NCBI GenBank assembly: GCA_905614365.1
Contig: CAJQSO010000017.1
Coordinates: 1 to 64,000, forward strand
DNA: 64,000 nucleotides
Reading direction: 5' to 3'
Source: an uncultured Candidatus Thioglobus sp.
GTDB lineage: Bacteria; Pseudomonadota; Gammaproteobacteria; PS1; Pseudothioglobaceae
Shown here piece after piece: positions 18,439 through 22,067 of the stretch. The translations under genes and the position numbers were made by a program. A model generated the notes under the pieces. That model made no database searches, had not been told where the DNA came from, and saw only the letters and a program-made list of their open reading frames with translations. Numbering within the stretch: the first letter of the stretch is position 1; every line of letters begins with the position of its first letter.

Positions 18439-19899
18439 CTATTTAGTATTAATTGGAAACCTAAGTTTTGCTTCAGCACCTTGCTGTATAAAACGGTTTT
18501 GAAGTGTTACCTCACCTCCATGAAGCTGCATTATCTTTCGGACAAATCGAAGGCCTAAGCCATTCCCTCTAACGCCAGTGTCTGGTCTAGATACGGAAAA
18601 AAATCGGGTAAATAGCTTGCTAAGAACGTGAGGAGGTATTCCTGGGCCATCATCAAGAACTATAATTGAAATAGCTGTATTAGTTTCAGAAACCTTGATG
18701 GTAATGGTTCCTGATTTTGGGCTGAAGTCTAAAGCATTATTTACAATATTACCAATAGCCTGCTCTAGTAGTATTTTTTCAGCTATTAGTAGAGACTTCT
18801 TGCTGATTTCAAGAACTATATTTAAATTTTTATCTAAGATATTTTTTGACCGGCTAGGAGCATTTAAAACGTTGTTAACGATTTGTAAAATATTTATTGA
18901 TTCAATAGTCTTAAGCGTTTCTCGTCTTTCAATTCTTGAGAGGTCAAGAAGTCTATTAACGAGAAGATCCATATGTTTATTTGAATCTAAGATATTTTCT
19001 ATAAACCTTTTTCTTTGCTCATCACTCATTGGAGTTAATAAATTCTCTGCAGTAAGCTGAATACCGGTTATAGGCGTTCTTAATTCATGCGCTAGAGTAT
19101 CGATATACTGCTCAACATCATCCTTTAGCTCAACCTCAGCCCTTGCATTTTCAATAGTTTTTGCAAGTTTATTAAATTGATTATTAAGATCGGGCATATC
19201 TACATCTTCACCACTAAAGAGACTAGTGGTATATTTTTCAATTCGCTTTATATTTCTAGATATTCTATAACTCCCTAACGCGCCAAAAATTAATGAAATT
19301 AGAAAAATATAAAAGATGAATTGCAAAAGATAGTTTTGATCTAATAAGTCCATTAGCGGCGCAACAACAACAACTGCGCCTAAAATCTCACCATTATTTC
19401 CATAGATTGGATTTGAAGCATTTAGATACCTTGACTTATAGAGGTACTCAACTATAGCTCCTCTAGCTTTTTTGGGCCCAGCAATCTTTTCTTCAACAAC
19501 TCTGGTGATGTCATGATCGCCACTCAGGGCAGAATCAACTTCATTATGAGCCCTCATGTCCTTACCAAGAATAAGTCCTCTAGAATCTAACACAAGAAGG
19601 CCGTCCTTATCGGTGACATAAATTGCAAGGTTTTCAAGTTTTTGATTATTGTTAGTATCTATTGTATTTTTTTGTGAGCGCAGATAATTAACAATCAAAC
19701 TCTCAAAGGTTTCTAAATCAATTTCACCATCTTTGTTGTTTTGAGAGGCAACTCGACTCATTAGACTTGAAACTTCAACCATGACTGACTTTGCAGATTC
19801 AAGCGCTGTTCTATGGGCAAATGTCCAAAGTAATGCTGAACTTATGATGAAGTATAGAAGAAAAAGTTTAGTCCCAATATTTAGCTTAAAGTGTCTCAT
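18439..19899 (-). CDS. creC: Two-component sensor histidine kinase, CreC-like
   Basis: Membrane sensor kinase of 486 residues. TM1 is at about 10-28, a periplasmic sensor domain at 30-185 (including the YVTDKDGLLVLDSRG block typical of CreC), and TM2 at about 190-208. The HisKA box LAHELRTPITGIQ holds the phosphorylated His (near residue 272), followed by an HATPase domain with N box, DDGPGIP and GNGLGLRFV. Overall layout and the sensor block match CreC better than PhoR or EnvZ. It overlaps creB by 4 bases and is the second gene of the pair. No creA or creD gene is visible. Confidence 0.85.
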   Translation of the reverse strand: MRHFKLNIGTKLFLLYFIISSALLWTFAHRTALESAKSVMVEVSSLMSRVASQNNKDGEIDLETFESLIVNYLRSQKNTIDTNNNQKLENLAIYVTDKDGLLVLDSRGLILGKDMRAHNEVDSALSGDHDITRVVEEKIAGPKKARGAIVEYLYKSRYLNASNPIYGNNGEILGAVVVVAPLMDLLDQNYLLQFIFYIFLISLIFGALGSYRISRNIKRIEKYTTSLFSGEDVDMPDLNNQFNKLAKTIENARAEVELKDDVEQYIDTLAHELRTPITGIQLTAENLLTPMSDEQRKRFIENILDSNKHMDLLVNRLLDLSRIERRETLKTIESINILQIVNNVLNAPSRSKNILDKNLNIVLEISKKSLLIAEKILLEQAIGNIVNNALDFSPKSGTITIKVSETNTAISIIVLDDGPGIPPHVLSKLFTRFFSVSRPDTGVRGNGLGLRFVRKIMQLHGGEVTLQNRFIQQGAEAKLRFPINTK

Positions 19900-20564
19900 T
19901 CAATCAAGCTATATCCAATTCCTCTATGGGTTTCAATAAAATCGCTGTTTTCATCAACTGCATGTAACCTCTTTCGAATTGACTTAATATGAGTATTAAT
20001 TGTTTTGATATCAGAGCCATGGGGCCTATCCCAAATAATACTCATTAAAAACTCTCTTGAATGAACCCTATTAGGATTTTTAACAAGATGAGATAAGATT
20101 TTAAATTCTGCAGGTGTTAGTGTTAGCTCAATCTCATTAAATACAACTCTTTGCATAGCATGATTAATACTAAACTTTGAAGTACCAGTATTAGTATTTG
20201 GCTGTCCTGTTCTCAGTTGAGCACGAACATGGGCGACAACCAGTCTTGGACTTAATGGTTTAGTCACATAAGCGTTAGCCCCAAGACCTTCAAGGCCTAA
20301 TACTTGATCGGATTCATCATCTCTTGCTGAAATAATAATAACAGGCAAGCTATATTTTTCACGAACCTTTCGAAGCACGTCAAACCCGCTCATATCAGGC
20401 AATCCAACGTCAAGAAGAATCAGGTCAACTTCATTATTATTTATATACTCAAGTGCGCCTTGACCAGTATCAAACCACTTGCAATTAAAAGAGTCTTGCT
20501 CAAGAATGAAAGCGATACTCTCAGCAATTGTTTTATCGTCCTCAACTATTAATATGGTTTGCAT
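19896..20564 (-). CDS. creB: Two-component response regulator, CreB-like (OmpR family)
   Basis: 222 residues: a receiver domain (about 1-118) with the phospho-acceptor Asp in LILLDVGLPDMSG, the acidic pocket EDDK near the start, and Lys in VTKPLS; then an OmpR winged-helix domain (about 130-220). It is the first gene of the pair. Its upstream region holds the direct repeat TTCAT-N6-TTCAT at 20628-20643, which has the 11-base period of OmpR-family sites and resembles the E. coli cre tag TTCAC-N6-TTCAC, so autoregulation is plausible. Confidence 0.88.
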   Translation of the reverse strand: MQTILIVEDDKTIAESIAFILEQDSFNCKWFDTGQGALEYINNNEVDLILLDVGLPDMSGFDVLRKVREKYSLPVIIISARDDESDQVLGLEGLGANAYVTKPLSPRLVVAHVRAQLRTGQPNTNTGTSKFSINHAMQRVVFNEIELTLTPAEFKILSHLVKNPNRVHSREFLMSIIWDRPHGSDIKTINTHIKSIRKRLHAVDENSDFIETHRGIGYSLIE

Positions 20565-20627
20565 TTGAGATAATAATTTCTAATAAAAAAAGATATTGTA
20601 GTTTAAAACAAAAAAATTAAAAGAATA

Positions 20628-20643
20628 TTCATAAAGTCTTCAT
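20628..20643. promoter_or_regulatory. Direct repeat resembling a cre tag or pho box
   Basis: TTCAT (20628-20632), AAAGTC, TTCAT (20639-20643): 11-base direct repeats as bound by OmpR-family regulators. Rightward, a TATATT (20654-20659) lies about 10 bases after the second repeat, the geometry of activated pho-type promoters. Leftward, TACAAT lies closer to creB. Either or both directions are possible. Confidence 0.45.
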
Positions 20644-20665
20644 CAAAACTCCATATATTAAACAT

Positions 20666-20957
20666 TTGAAAGTTTGACGAAGTGGTTAGTATGTGCCTAT
20701 TGTTTTTAGTTTATTAGAGCCGCTGCAATTTCAACCCCTTTAAATTGCAGCCAAACATATTGCTGATAATCTCTTCATTTGTAAACAGATTATACATAAG
20801 CATTATGCGAGTCTCTAGTAGCTAAAAGCAATATTTAAGAATTTTAAGTTTTTTTAAAGAACCTCAAAACTTTTGTCATTCTCTCTCCGTTTGGCATAAG
20901 AGGTACCCGCTTTAGTTGACAGGTCTCTCCTTATCGGTCAACTAAAGCATTTTTCTT
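20666..20957 (+). ncRNA. Candidate small RNA or structured leader
   Basis: The 605 bases between creB and the peroxiredoxin gene hold no large ORF. This part contains three successive stem-loops: GCTGCAATTT/AAATTGCAGC (20722-20751, perfect 10 pairs), AAGTTTT/AAAACTT (20846-20872), and a 12-pair terminator hairpin (20909-20948). A promoter candidate lies near 20654. It could be a free small RNA of about 290 bases or a leader for the small ORF at 20967. I recognise no known RNA family (not tmRNA, RNase P, SRP or 6S by inspection). Confidence 0.4.
20909..20955 (+). terminator. Rho-independent terminator
   Basis: Perfect 12-pair stem GCTTTAGTTGAC (20909-20920) / GTCAACTAAAGC (20937-20948), a 16-base loop, then ATTTTTC. 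It ends 12 bases before a small ORF and over 300 bases from any upstream rightward gene, so it must end a separate transcript or act as an attenuator. Confidence 0.8.
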
Positions 20958-20966
20958 GGAATAACT

Positions 20967-21119
20967 ATGAATCAAATGCATAAGCAATTATCTTTAAAAC
21001 CAACATTAGTAAATAATACTAAATCTTATTGTAAGAGAAATAATATCAATGAAAAGCAATTTTTAAAAGCAATGAAATGGTATCAAAGCGCTATAAGTAA
21101 CTCTAAGAAAAATAAATAA
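20967..21119 (+). CDS. Small basic protein of unknown function (50 aa)
   Basis: An ORF beginning MNQMHKQLSLKPTLVNN and ending AISNSKKNK: 50 residues, about nine lysines, one Cys, a predicted helical C-terminal half (NEKQFLKAMKWYQSAIS). It starts 12 bases after the terminator hairpin and ends 50 bases before the peroxiredoxin gene. The ribosome site is weak (TTGGA about 9 bases upstream). I do not recognise it; the ORF length is modest for an AT-rich region, but the amino acid make-up looks protein-like. Confidence 0.4.
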   Translation: MNQMHKQLSLKPTLVNNTKSYCKRNNINEKQFLKAMKWYQSAISNSKKNK

Positions 21120-21169: not shown

Positions 21170-21697
21170 ATGTTCATAAAATCCATCAAAAAAGTTTTTC
21201 TTATATCTCTTTTATTAGCATTTTATTCCACGTCGCATGCATCCCTGGAACTAGGCGATAAAGCGCCAAACTTTATTCTTGATGATCAGAATAGTCAAAG
21301 CCATCAATTGAGTGACTATAAGGGTAAATGGGTAATTCTTTATTTTTATCCTAAAGATGACACGCCTGGTTGCACTACCCAGGCTTGTGACTTTAGAGAT
21401 GCGGTTAAAAGGATTATTGCAAGTAAGTCGGTTGTATTTGGTGTAAGTCTTGATAGTGTCGAATCTCACAAACGCTTTTCTGATAAAAATAATTTACCTT
21501 TTTCCCTGCTATCAGATGAAGAGGGCATAGTTGCAAAATCTTATGACTCTCTTAATAGCTTTATAGGCTTTAAGAGCGCAAAGCGAAATACCTTTATTAT
21601 TAATCCTGAAGGGTTACTATCTAAAATTTACTTATCCGTAGATCCTAAAACGCACTCACAGATGGTCTTAAACGATCTGTCTGTATTGCAAGAATAA
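21170..21697 (+). CDS. Exported peroxiredoxin, BCP/AhpC-TSA family
   Basis: Thiol peroxidase of 175 residues with an N-terminal signal peptide (about 1-24, ending SHA-SLELG), so probably periplasmic, unlike cytoplasmic Bcp. Catalytic motif PKDDTPGCTTQACDF: peroxidatic Cys68 and a second Cys73 placed as in atypical 2-Cys Bcp proteins; the Thr two residues before Cp (DTPGC) and a later Arg complete the site. Divergently independent of the two-component genes and convergent with the GIY-YIG gene, their stops being 2 bases apart. Confidence 0.9.
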   Translation: MFIKSIKKVFLISLLLAFYSTSHASLELGDKAPNFILDDQNSQSHQLSDYKGKWVILYFYPKDDTPGCTTQACDFRDAVKRIIASKSVVFGVSLDSVESHKRFSDKNNLPFSLLSDEEGIVAKSYDSLNSFIGFKSAKRNTFIINPEGLLSKIYLSVDPKTHSQMVLNDLSVLQE

Positions 21698-21699
21698 CT

Positions 21700-21978
21700 T
21701 CAGTTTGATTTATTTAAATGAAATAAAGCTGTTTTAGCTTTCCTTGTCATTTTTTTAATAACAATTTCTCTCTTTAAAGCCTCACTTCTTGATATAGCAC
21801 TCTCTTGATAGACTAATTCTAATGGCTGCCTTGATCTGGTGTATTTAGCACCACCTTTAATTTCACCATTGTGCTGTTTAAGACGATTTTCTAGATCATT
21901 AGTAATCCCACAATAGAGGGTTTTATCCTTACACTCAAGAAGGTAAATAAGCCATTTTTTTATAGGAATATCAGTCAT
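21700..21978 (-). CDS. GIY-YIG domain protein, UPF0213 family
   Basis: 92 residues from the ATG at 21978 (MTDIPIKKW). The GIY-YIG signature appears as LIYLLECKDKTLYCGITNDLENRLKQH with the family's C-terminal block REIVIKKMTRKAK. An upstream in-frame ATG (22017) would add 13 residues, but family members begin shortly before the WLIYLL strand, so I chose 21978. These small single-domain nuclease-like proteins are common in bacteria; their role is not established, with DNA nicking reported for relatives. Confidence 0.85.
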   Translation of the reverse strand: MTDIPIKKWLIYLLECKDKTLYCGITNDLENRLKQHNGEIKGGAKYTRSRQPLELVYQESAISRSEALKREIVIKKMTRKAKTALFHLNKSN

Positions 21979-22067
21979 TAAAAACTTTTTAGTATAATTA
22001 TTAAATACAATATACAATTACATTATAATGCGCGTTTTTTATAGTTTTAATATACTTAAAAATAATC

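Follow-up and report, generated by a model that had tools for sequence, protein, structure and literature searches.

The region between a CreB-like response regulator gene and a small open reading frame (ORF) holds a conserved, structured noncoding RNA of 257 nt. Compared with its counterparts in related genera, this RNA looks like the decayed mRNA of an SH3-domain protein that has retained its promoter, the pairing of its 5' end, and its structured 3' untranslated region (UTR). Taken as a whole, we lean slightly toward an mRNA-derived, Hfq-independent, trans-acting RNA that is switched by a CreBC-like system and ends in a leaky terminator. Throughout, "the window" is the entire 64,000-nt stretch of DNA analyzed, which comes from a genome of 1.14 Mb that is 75% complete. 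Its genus is taken to be Pseudothioglobus, as relatives of the regulator at 94-99% identity belong to SUP05-cluster, Candidatus Pseudothioglobus, and uncultured gammaproteobacterial records.

Locus layout and neighboring genes

The features of the locus are as follows, with positions counted from the first letter of the window.

18439 to 19899, minus strand: CreC-like sensor histidine kinase (Pfam HisKA and HATPase_c; top NCBIfam model CreC)
19896 to 20564, minus strand: CreB-like response regulator, divergent from the RNA (Pfam Response_reg and Trans_reg_C; top NCBIfam model CreB)
20595 to 20600, minus strand: putative -10 of the response-regulator gene, TACAAT on the minus strand (ATTGTA is conserved in the alignment of relatives)
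20628 to 20665, plus strand: putative response-regulator site, cre-tag-like with an 11-bp period, TTCAT N6 TTCAT N6 TCCAT N6 AACAT
20665 to 20692, plus strand: predicted promoter (conserved-variable-conserved pattern)
20699 to 20955, plus strand: noncoding structured RNA, 257 nt (fold z, conservation, covariation)
20699 to 20719, plus strand: 5' arm of the long-range stem, ATTGTTTTTAGTTTATTAGAG, putative former SH3 mRNA 5' UTR, pairing with 20813 to 20832
20722 to 20751, plus strand: hairpin 1, loop ACCCC at 20734 to 20738, putative former start-codon region
20813 to 20832, plus strand: 3' arm of the long-range stem, putative former SH3 codons (..KxN..)
20861 to 20904, plus strand: hairpin 2 (ACCTC/GAGGT, TGTCA/TGGCA) with CU-rich loop TTCTCTCTCCGTT (covariation)
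20909 to 20955, plus strand: terminator hairpin with a 12-bp stem, CU-rich loop, and tail ATTTTTC (inverted repeat, covariation)
20967 to 21119, plus strand: 50-aa small ORF, directly behind the RNA in 19 of the first 20 loci
21170 to 21697, plus strand: peroxiredoxin, AhpC/TSA, PrxQ/BCP-like (Pfam/NCBIfam); other genera have no peroxiredoxin at this place

The initial annotation named the two-component pair creBC. CreB and CreC are indeed the top NCBIfam models, with scores under the curated cut-offs (236 versus 273 bits for the CreB model and 303 versus 356 bits for the CreC model). "CreB-like" is thus an approximate name, resting on this ranking below the cut-offs and on the cre-tag-like repeats described below. 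Among the seven neighboring proteins scanned against Pfam and NCBIfam, a local neighborhood rather than the whole genome, none matched CreD.

The response regulator (to 20564) and the 50-aa ORF (from 20967) are separated by 402 bp that contain no ORF of at least 40 aa, and within the RNA itself none of that length occurs on either strand, in agreement with the initial annotation, as is the presence downstream of the small ORF and a PrxQ/BCP-type peroxiredoxin. The 50-aa ORF has no match in Pfam or NCBIfam. It is conserved across the genus and resembles a short ORF found behind the sortase-like gene of other genera. A 93-aa GIY-YIG domain protein is encoded on the minus strand at 21700-21981, convergent with the peroxiredoxin gene.

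RNA structure and covariation

Folding of 20699-20955 yields -69.2 kcal/mol, with a z-score of -6.81 against dinucleotide shuffles. The stem-loops and 12-pair terminator reported earlier were recovered, the latter as a perfect 12-bp inverted repeat (20909-20920/20937-20948). A simple terminator scan omits the hairpin at 20909-20955, the loop of which is 16 nt. Further upstream, the long-range stem formed by 20699-20719 and 20813-20832 encloses hairpin 1.

Covariation is strong in the 3' domain, where 17 of 26 pairs have changed on both sides. The alignment contains 108 such both-sided cells there (shuffles, 30.3, sd 7.8; slid partners, no more than 25), and 91.0% of the cells are able to pair, against at most 41.7% with slid partners. 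In the terminator hairpin, 14 of 15 pairs changed on both sides across relatives. In hairpin 1, both-sided changes affect four of seven pairs, a pair count that 175 of 500 shuffles also reach; its 20 both-sided cells, against 6.4 in shuffles, were reached in none of the 500. Variation in the long 5' stem is mostly one-sided, with 13 of 20 pairs invariant and none changed on both sides; the exception is four sequences (L008, L009, L012, and L013) in which each arm has lost one matching base. We do not claim this stem as proof by covariation.

The loops are preserved too. The ACCCC loop of hairpin 1 is present in 17 of 18 aligned sequences, CTCC occurs in loop 2 of all 31 sequences, and loop 3 contains CTCC in 25 of 31, with the remainder also C- or U-rich. 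In four genomes (L016-L019), the RNA is 307-309 nt rather than 257, and the additional ~50 nt correspond to the SH3 remnant region in its 5' part.

Predicted promoter and tandem repeats

The 11-base direct repeats that the initial annotation compared to a cre tag or pho box are present and cre-tag-like, comprising three to four half-sites rather than two: TTCAT (20628-20632), TTCAT (20639-20643), TCCAT (20650-20654), and a fourth, AACAT (20661-20665), that is a weaker match yet invariant. Three half-sites stand in register at all 29 scored loci, matching at 13-15 of 15 letters with TTCAY allowed. The published cre tag is given in the part of the source consulted as TTCACN6TTCAC (PMC4689548). 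The window carries the TTCAT form and two loci, L016 and L017, the literal TTCACN6TTCACN6TTCAC; by the repeats of the 29 loci, this putative target promoter belongs with cre-tag promoters.

Conserved elements follow in a fixed order: AAACATTTGA, a variable spacer, TAnnAT (20687-20692), six bases, and ATTGTTTTTAG from 20699. The predicted promoter consists of a -35-like TTTGAA (20665-20670), a 16-nt variable spacer, and the -10 TAGTAT (20687-20692), which reads TATTAT or TAAACT in relatives. TATATT (20654-20659), originally proposed as the -10, is unconserved and gives way to this conserved element. From the first repeat to the RNA start ATTG, the distance is exactly 71 bp in 28 of 29 loci from five genera; the 29th, L053, lacks ATTGTTTTTAG, and the truncated or duplicate loci L014, L020, and L061 are excluded from this count.

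The pattern TTCAYN6TTCAYN6TYCAY has 11 matches in eight Pseudothioglobus genomes, against two for the reversed control pattern, and in seven of these eight genomes one of the matches is the RNA promoter. The triple repeat is thus almost confined to this promoter. A second triple repeat, TTCATN6TTCACN6TTCAT, lies at L091 1501-1527 (G000:C25:43295-43321) and also in G002:C34 and G010:C30. It is followed ~10 bp later by TATAAT (L091, L082) and stands upstream of an ORF that we take to be an RND-family transporter by its look; the preceding gene is presumably a TypA-like GTPase. This repeat may mark a second regulator target within the clade to which the window belongs.

Distribution and family searches

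Of 58 relatives searched at the DNA level, 24 contain the region. A 3'-domain covariance model matched 23 of 29 genomes of the genus, including all 11 congeners that are at least 90% complete, and a second model built from 31 sequences matched 37 of 83 Thioglobaceae genomes from five of 11 genera, with one copy each (the order comprises the same 83 genomes as the family). Structural conservation across related genomes, on which the initial annotation had staked its reading, was thereby found. Six loci (L099-L104) came from the second model alone and were absent from its building set, and all have the same architecture. In a class-wide sample of 274 genomes, searched with stricter filters that lose weak matches, the window's own genome alone matched. 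The regulator gene lies beside and divergent from the RNA at all 35 loci whose stretch reaches it, a count that leaves out L014 and L061, whose stretches are too short.

Known RNA families offered no identity for the element. Rfam 15 has no match at the locus, with a tRNA as its sole match in the window, and none in nine related loci. A sub-threshold snoRNA match on the other strand (E 2.1) was taken as chance. We considered 6S RNA because of the long imperfect hairpin and the lack of a 6S match in the window's 75%-complete genome; the 6S family (RF00013) has no match at the locus, and 21 of 29 congeners have 6S elsewhere. A CsrA/RsmA decoy on the opposite strand, where the loops read GGA, was set aside because the promoter and terminator lie on the plus strand. 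The covariance model gives weak matches of 19-29 bits on that strand, which we take to be an echo of the inverted repeats. On the strength of these searches, we regard the element as a genuine, conserved RNA that Rfam does not list, and no description of it was found in the portions of the open-access literature consulted.

Probable descent from an SH3-protein mRNA

In other genera, this promoter and 5' end precede an intact ORF of 208-214 aa, and both of the proteins scanned match TIGR04211 (SH3 domain and anchor) above the cut-off. At the loci measured, the 3' RNA element begins 1-13 bases after the SH3 stop codon. When the coordinates of the RNA and TIGR04211 matches were compared, a TIGR04211 gene on the RNA's strand immediately preceded it in all 14 of the non-Pseudothioglobus genomes that carry the RNA and in none of 23 Pseudothioglobus genomes; where the latter have TIGR04211 genes, these lie elsewhere in the genome. 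This flanking of the SH3 gene by the same promoter and 3' domain outside the genus underlies our reading of the RNA as a decayed mRNA.

Several loci appear to preserve intermediate states. Three early-branching Pseudothioglobus loci (L052, L054, and L063) carry a remnant frame of 73-76 aa with recognizable motifs; L016, L018, and L019 retain part of it, and L017 has an in-frame stop. The SH3 start codon is gone from L001-L013 and L015, except in L010, where a start is immediately followed by a stop. Substitutions at codon positions 1/2/3 number 81/29/137 among the intact ORFs versus 38/38/39 and 12/24/26 in two remnant groups, sums that run over non-independent pairs and leave out L061. By this measure, the remnants have lost coding constraint.

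A tree of the regulator (35 rows, midpoint root) places all intact-ORF rows on one side of a branch with support 100/99. On the genus side, L053, which has a rearranged 5' part and is labelled a remnant, branches first, followed by L052/L054/L063. The noncoding forms are not a single clade and need two changes, so the loss of the last remnants may have occurred more than once.

The 5' end of the transcript offers a further link to the coding ancestor. Its first 11 bases, ATTGTTTTTAG, complement four SH3 codons at 11 of 11 positions (G-U allowed) in all 14 intact loci, counts that are not independent among related loci and are to be read beside chance complements of 9-10 of 11 nearby; L102, with a 5' arm one U shorter, was scored against the 11-base form. 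The residues at the paired codons vary (TKSN, TKDN, AKNN, TEGN, SKNN, and others). Every one of the 14 loci has C as the last base of the third paired codon, RRY, against 38% among the RRY codons of these genes, and AAT as the Asn codon that follows. We read this as an ancestral mRNA with a 5' end that, before the gene was lost, was already tied to the mRNA's own codons near the translation start. In Pseudothioglobus, this stem would have grown to ~20 bp.

Downstream genes and probable read-through

The gap between the RNA and the following start codon is 13-16 bp in all 14 other-genus loci and 12-13 bp in many Pseudothioglobus loci, which leaves no room for a separate promoter in most loci and makes read-through probable. 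The gene in this position is sortase-like in all 14 other-genus loci; in Pseudothioglobus it is a small ORF in 21 of 23 and sortase-like in L052 and L063. The terminator stem is 87.6% paired over 29 distinct sequences, and at least four T follow it in 18 of 31. The proximity of the next start and the 13 of 31 terminators without a four-T run both favor some read-through. From these features we infer that the terminator is probably leaky and that the small ORF and peroxiredoxin are transcribed by read-through.

In two other-genus loci, L055 and L059, the sortase-like gene is followed by a long protein that we take to be a vWA-type sortase target. These loci comprise the CreBC-like pair, the SH3 protein, the sortase-like protein, the small ORF, and the long vWA-type protein, with L055 additionally showing where another sortase-like ORF begins. 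Pseudothioglobus has lost much of such a locus here.

Proposed mechanism and alternatives

Under our proposal, the CreBC-like system would turn on the RNA via the tandem TTCAY half-sites between the divergent promoters. In the sister genera, the mRNA of an exported SH3 protein (TIGR04211) would be made from the same promoter and carry the same structured 3' end; the sensor system would originally have driven the exported protein and the 3' RNA element jointly, a history suggested by analogy with cpxP/CpxQ. In Pseudothioglobus, the coding part would have decayed, with the promoter, the 5' end paired with the former codons, and the 3' element retained. The loops ACCCC, CUCUCC, and CUCC may pair in trans with the G-rich start regions of a few mRNAs, and the RNA would then give the sensor system a noncoding output arm. 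Hfq was found in none of the 29 genomes of the genus, in a search that matched five of 14 control genomes, E. coli included, so pairing would depend on the exposed CU-rich loops. Shine-Dalgarno motifs are scarce among the window's genes (10 of 57 versus six of 57 in a control stretch), and few targets would therefore be expected; this scarcity also weakens the idea of a direct anti-Shine-Dalgarno role on many mRNAs.

Whether the locus records a stepwise and still visible conversion of an mRNA into a regulatory RNA, leaving the sensor with a mainly noncoding output, strikes us as evenly balanced. The ancestor would have been a two-component-activated mRNA structured at both ends, by codon pairing at the 5' end and by covarying hairpins at the 3' end. 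In Pseudothioglobus, the protein would have been lost while selection held the RNA parts, and the former start-codon region may have been rebuilt as a new C-rich hairpin loop. In the end state, the main recognizable output of the sensor system would be a noncoding RNA.

The initial annotation had offered two readings of the region, an activated small RNA (sRNA) divergent from its own two-component genes or a leader for the small ORF and peroxiredoxin. The divergent arrangement (35/35), covariation, fixed promoter spacing, and occurrence in 37/83 genomes bear out much of the former, with activation by this regulator a prediction from the repeats; the sRNA reading is partly supported and, on comparative grounds, better so than the leader. 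We consider a cis-acting leader or attenuator of the small ORF and peroxiredoxin (of the sortase genes in sister genera) possible though rather unlikely. In such an element, the 3' hairpins with CU-rich loops would govern read-through or hide the next ribosome-binding site. A start codon 12-16 bp behind the RNA, with no promoter space, would fit this equally well, the weak T-runs in 13 of 31 sequences would suit a leaky, adjustable terminator, and in sister genera the element is flanked by two genes belonging to a single operon. However, the downstream gene switches between sortase-like, small ORF, and small ORF plus peroxiredoxin while the loops and stems stay unchanged, and L008, L009, L012, and L013 keep the CU-rich loops without a visible G-rich ribosome-binding site before the small ORF. 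The persistence of the loops under both circumstances favors trans action, and a leader would leave unexplained why the 5' domain was kept once the SH3 gene was gone. Trans action and read-through may also coexist.

Two further explanations would assign the region no role as a regulatory RNA or a role as a message. Operon decay is common in reduced genomes, and stable 3' hairpins protect mRNAs. The locus might accordingly hold just a promoter, a pseudogene relic freed from coding selection, and an ordinary terminator or stability hairpin. Erosion would be expected of such a relic, yet hairpin 1 covaries and keeps its loop in 17 of 18 sequences, the CTCC of loop 2, invariant in 31 of 31, would be needless for a mere terminator or protective hairpin, and none of the 11 nearly complete congeners lacks the RNA; we think this explanation improbable. 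It is more improbable still that a remnant ORF of 50-75 aa or another short ORF is translated, making the RNA a small mRNA or dual-function RNA. The 73-76-aa frame of L052, L054, and L063 and the partial frames of L016, L018, and L019 would suit such a message, but substitutions are spread uniformly over codon positions, L017 has its in-frame stop, and L001-L013 and L015 no longer have the start codon or, in L010, have one directly followed by a stop. The substitution pattern and stop codons led us to rule out the remnant ORF as a peptide gene.

Comparison with known systems

A close parallel to the proposed history of this RNA is cpxP, which is arranged divergently from cpxRA. As given in the excerpted account consulted, CpxQ is a ~60-nt, Hfq-dependent sRNA from the 3' UTR of the CpxR-activated cpxP mRNA, the parent gene of which is intact (PMC9438474). 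Both cases would combine a two-component-activated mRNA for an exported protein with a conserved RNA element in the 3' UTR under one shared promoter; the conserved, structured element follows the coding part of the mRNA in all 14 other-genus genomes that have the RNA, and Pseudothioglobus has the element without the gene. Unlike CpxQ as excerpted, the RNA here is 257 nt, Hfq was not found, and the window's genus no longer has the protein part. The same account describes SroC as an sRNA from an intercistronic terminator within the gltIJKL operon (PMC9438474), and here too an early terminator between operon genes would set the 3' end of the RNA. SroC is, by that partial description, Hfq-dependent with no loss of the upstream gene, whereas the operon here lies beside a two-component system, and the likeness is one of layout rather than sequence.

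LhrC/RsaE-type sRNAs carry C-rich anti-Shine-Dalgarno loops. Our RNA resembles them, by form rather than by sequence comparison, in having several unpaired C/U-rich loops, a stable fold, and possible Hfq-free action. The CreBC regulon has protein genes such as creD as its known outputs, and the output here is instead a candidate RNA. Likeness to that regulon lies in the closest regulator models and in sites of the type TTCAC N6 TTCAC, as far as the part of the source consulted describes them (PMC4689548). No sRNA output of CreBC was found in the literature at title and abstract level. The general idea of sRNAs arising from pseudogenes is not new, having been raised as a possibility for Sodalis in the part of that study consulted (PMC7067036).

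Implications

At this one syntenic locus, a coding ancestor, in-between remnants, and a noncoding end state coexist in living relatives. The origins of bacterial sRNAs are poorly resolved, as sRNAs usually change too fast for intermediates to remain visible. With three states coexisting, one can test directly whether an sRNA arose from a decayed mRNA, and judged from sequence this origin appears unusually well documented here. No described sRNA of the SUP05/Pseudothioglobus group was found in the open-access literature at title and abstract level. The RNA is a candidate Hfq-independent riboregulator of these ocean bacteria and may represent a noncoding output for a CreBC-like system.
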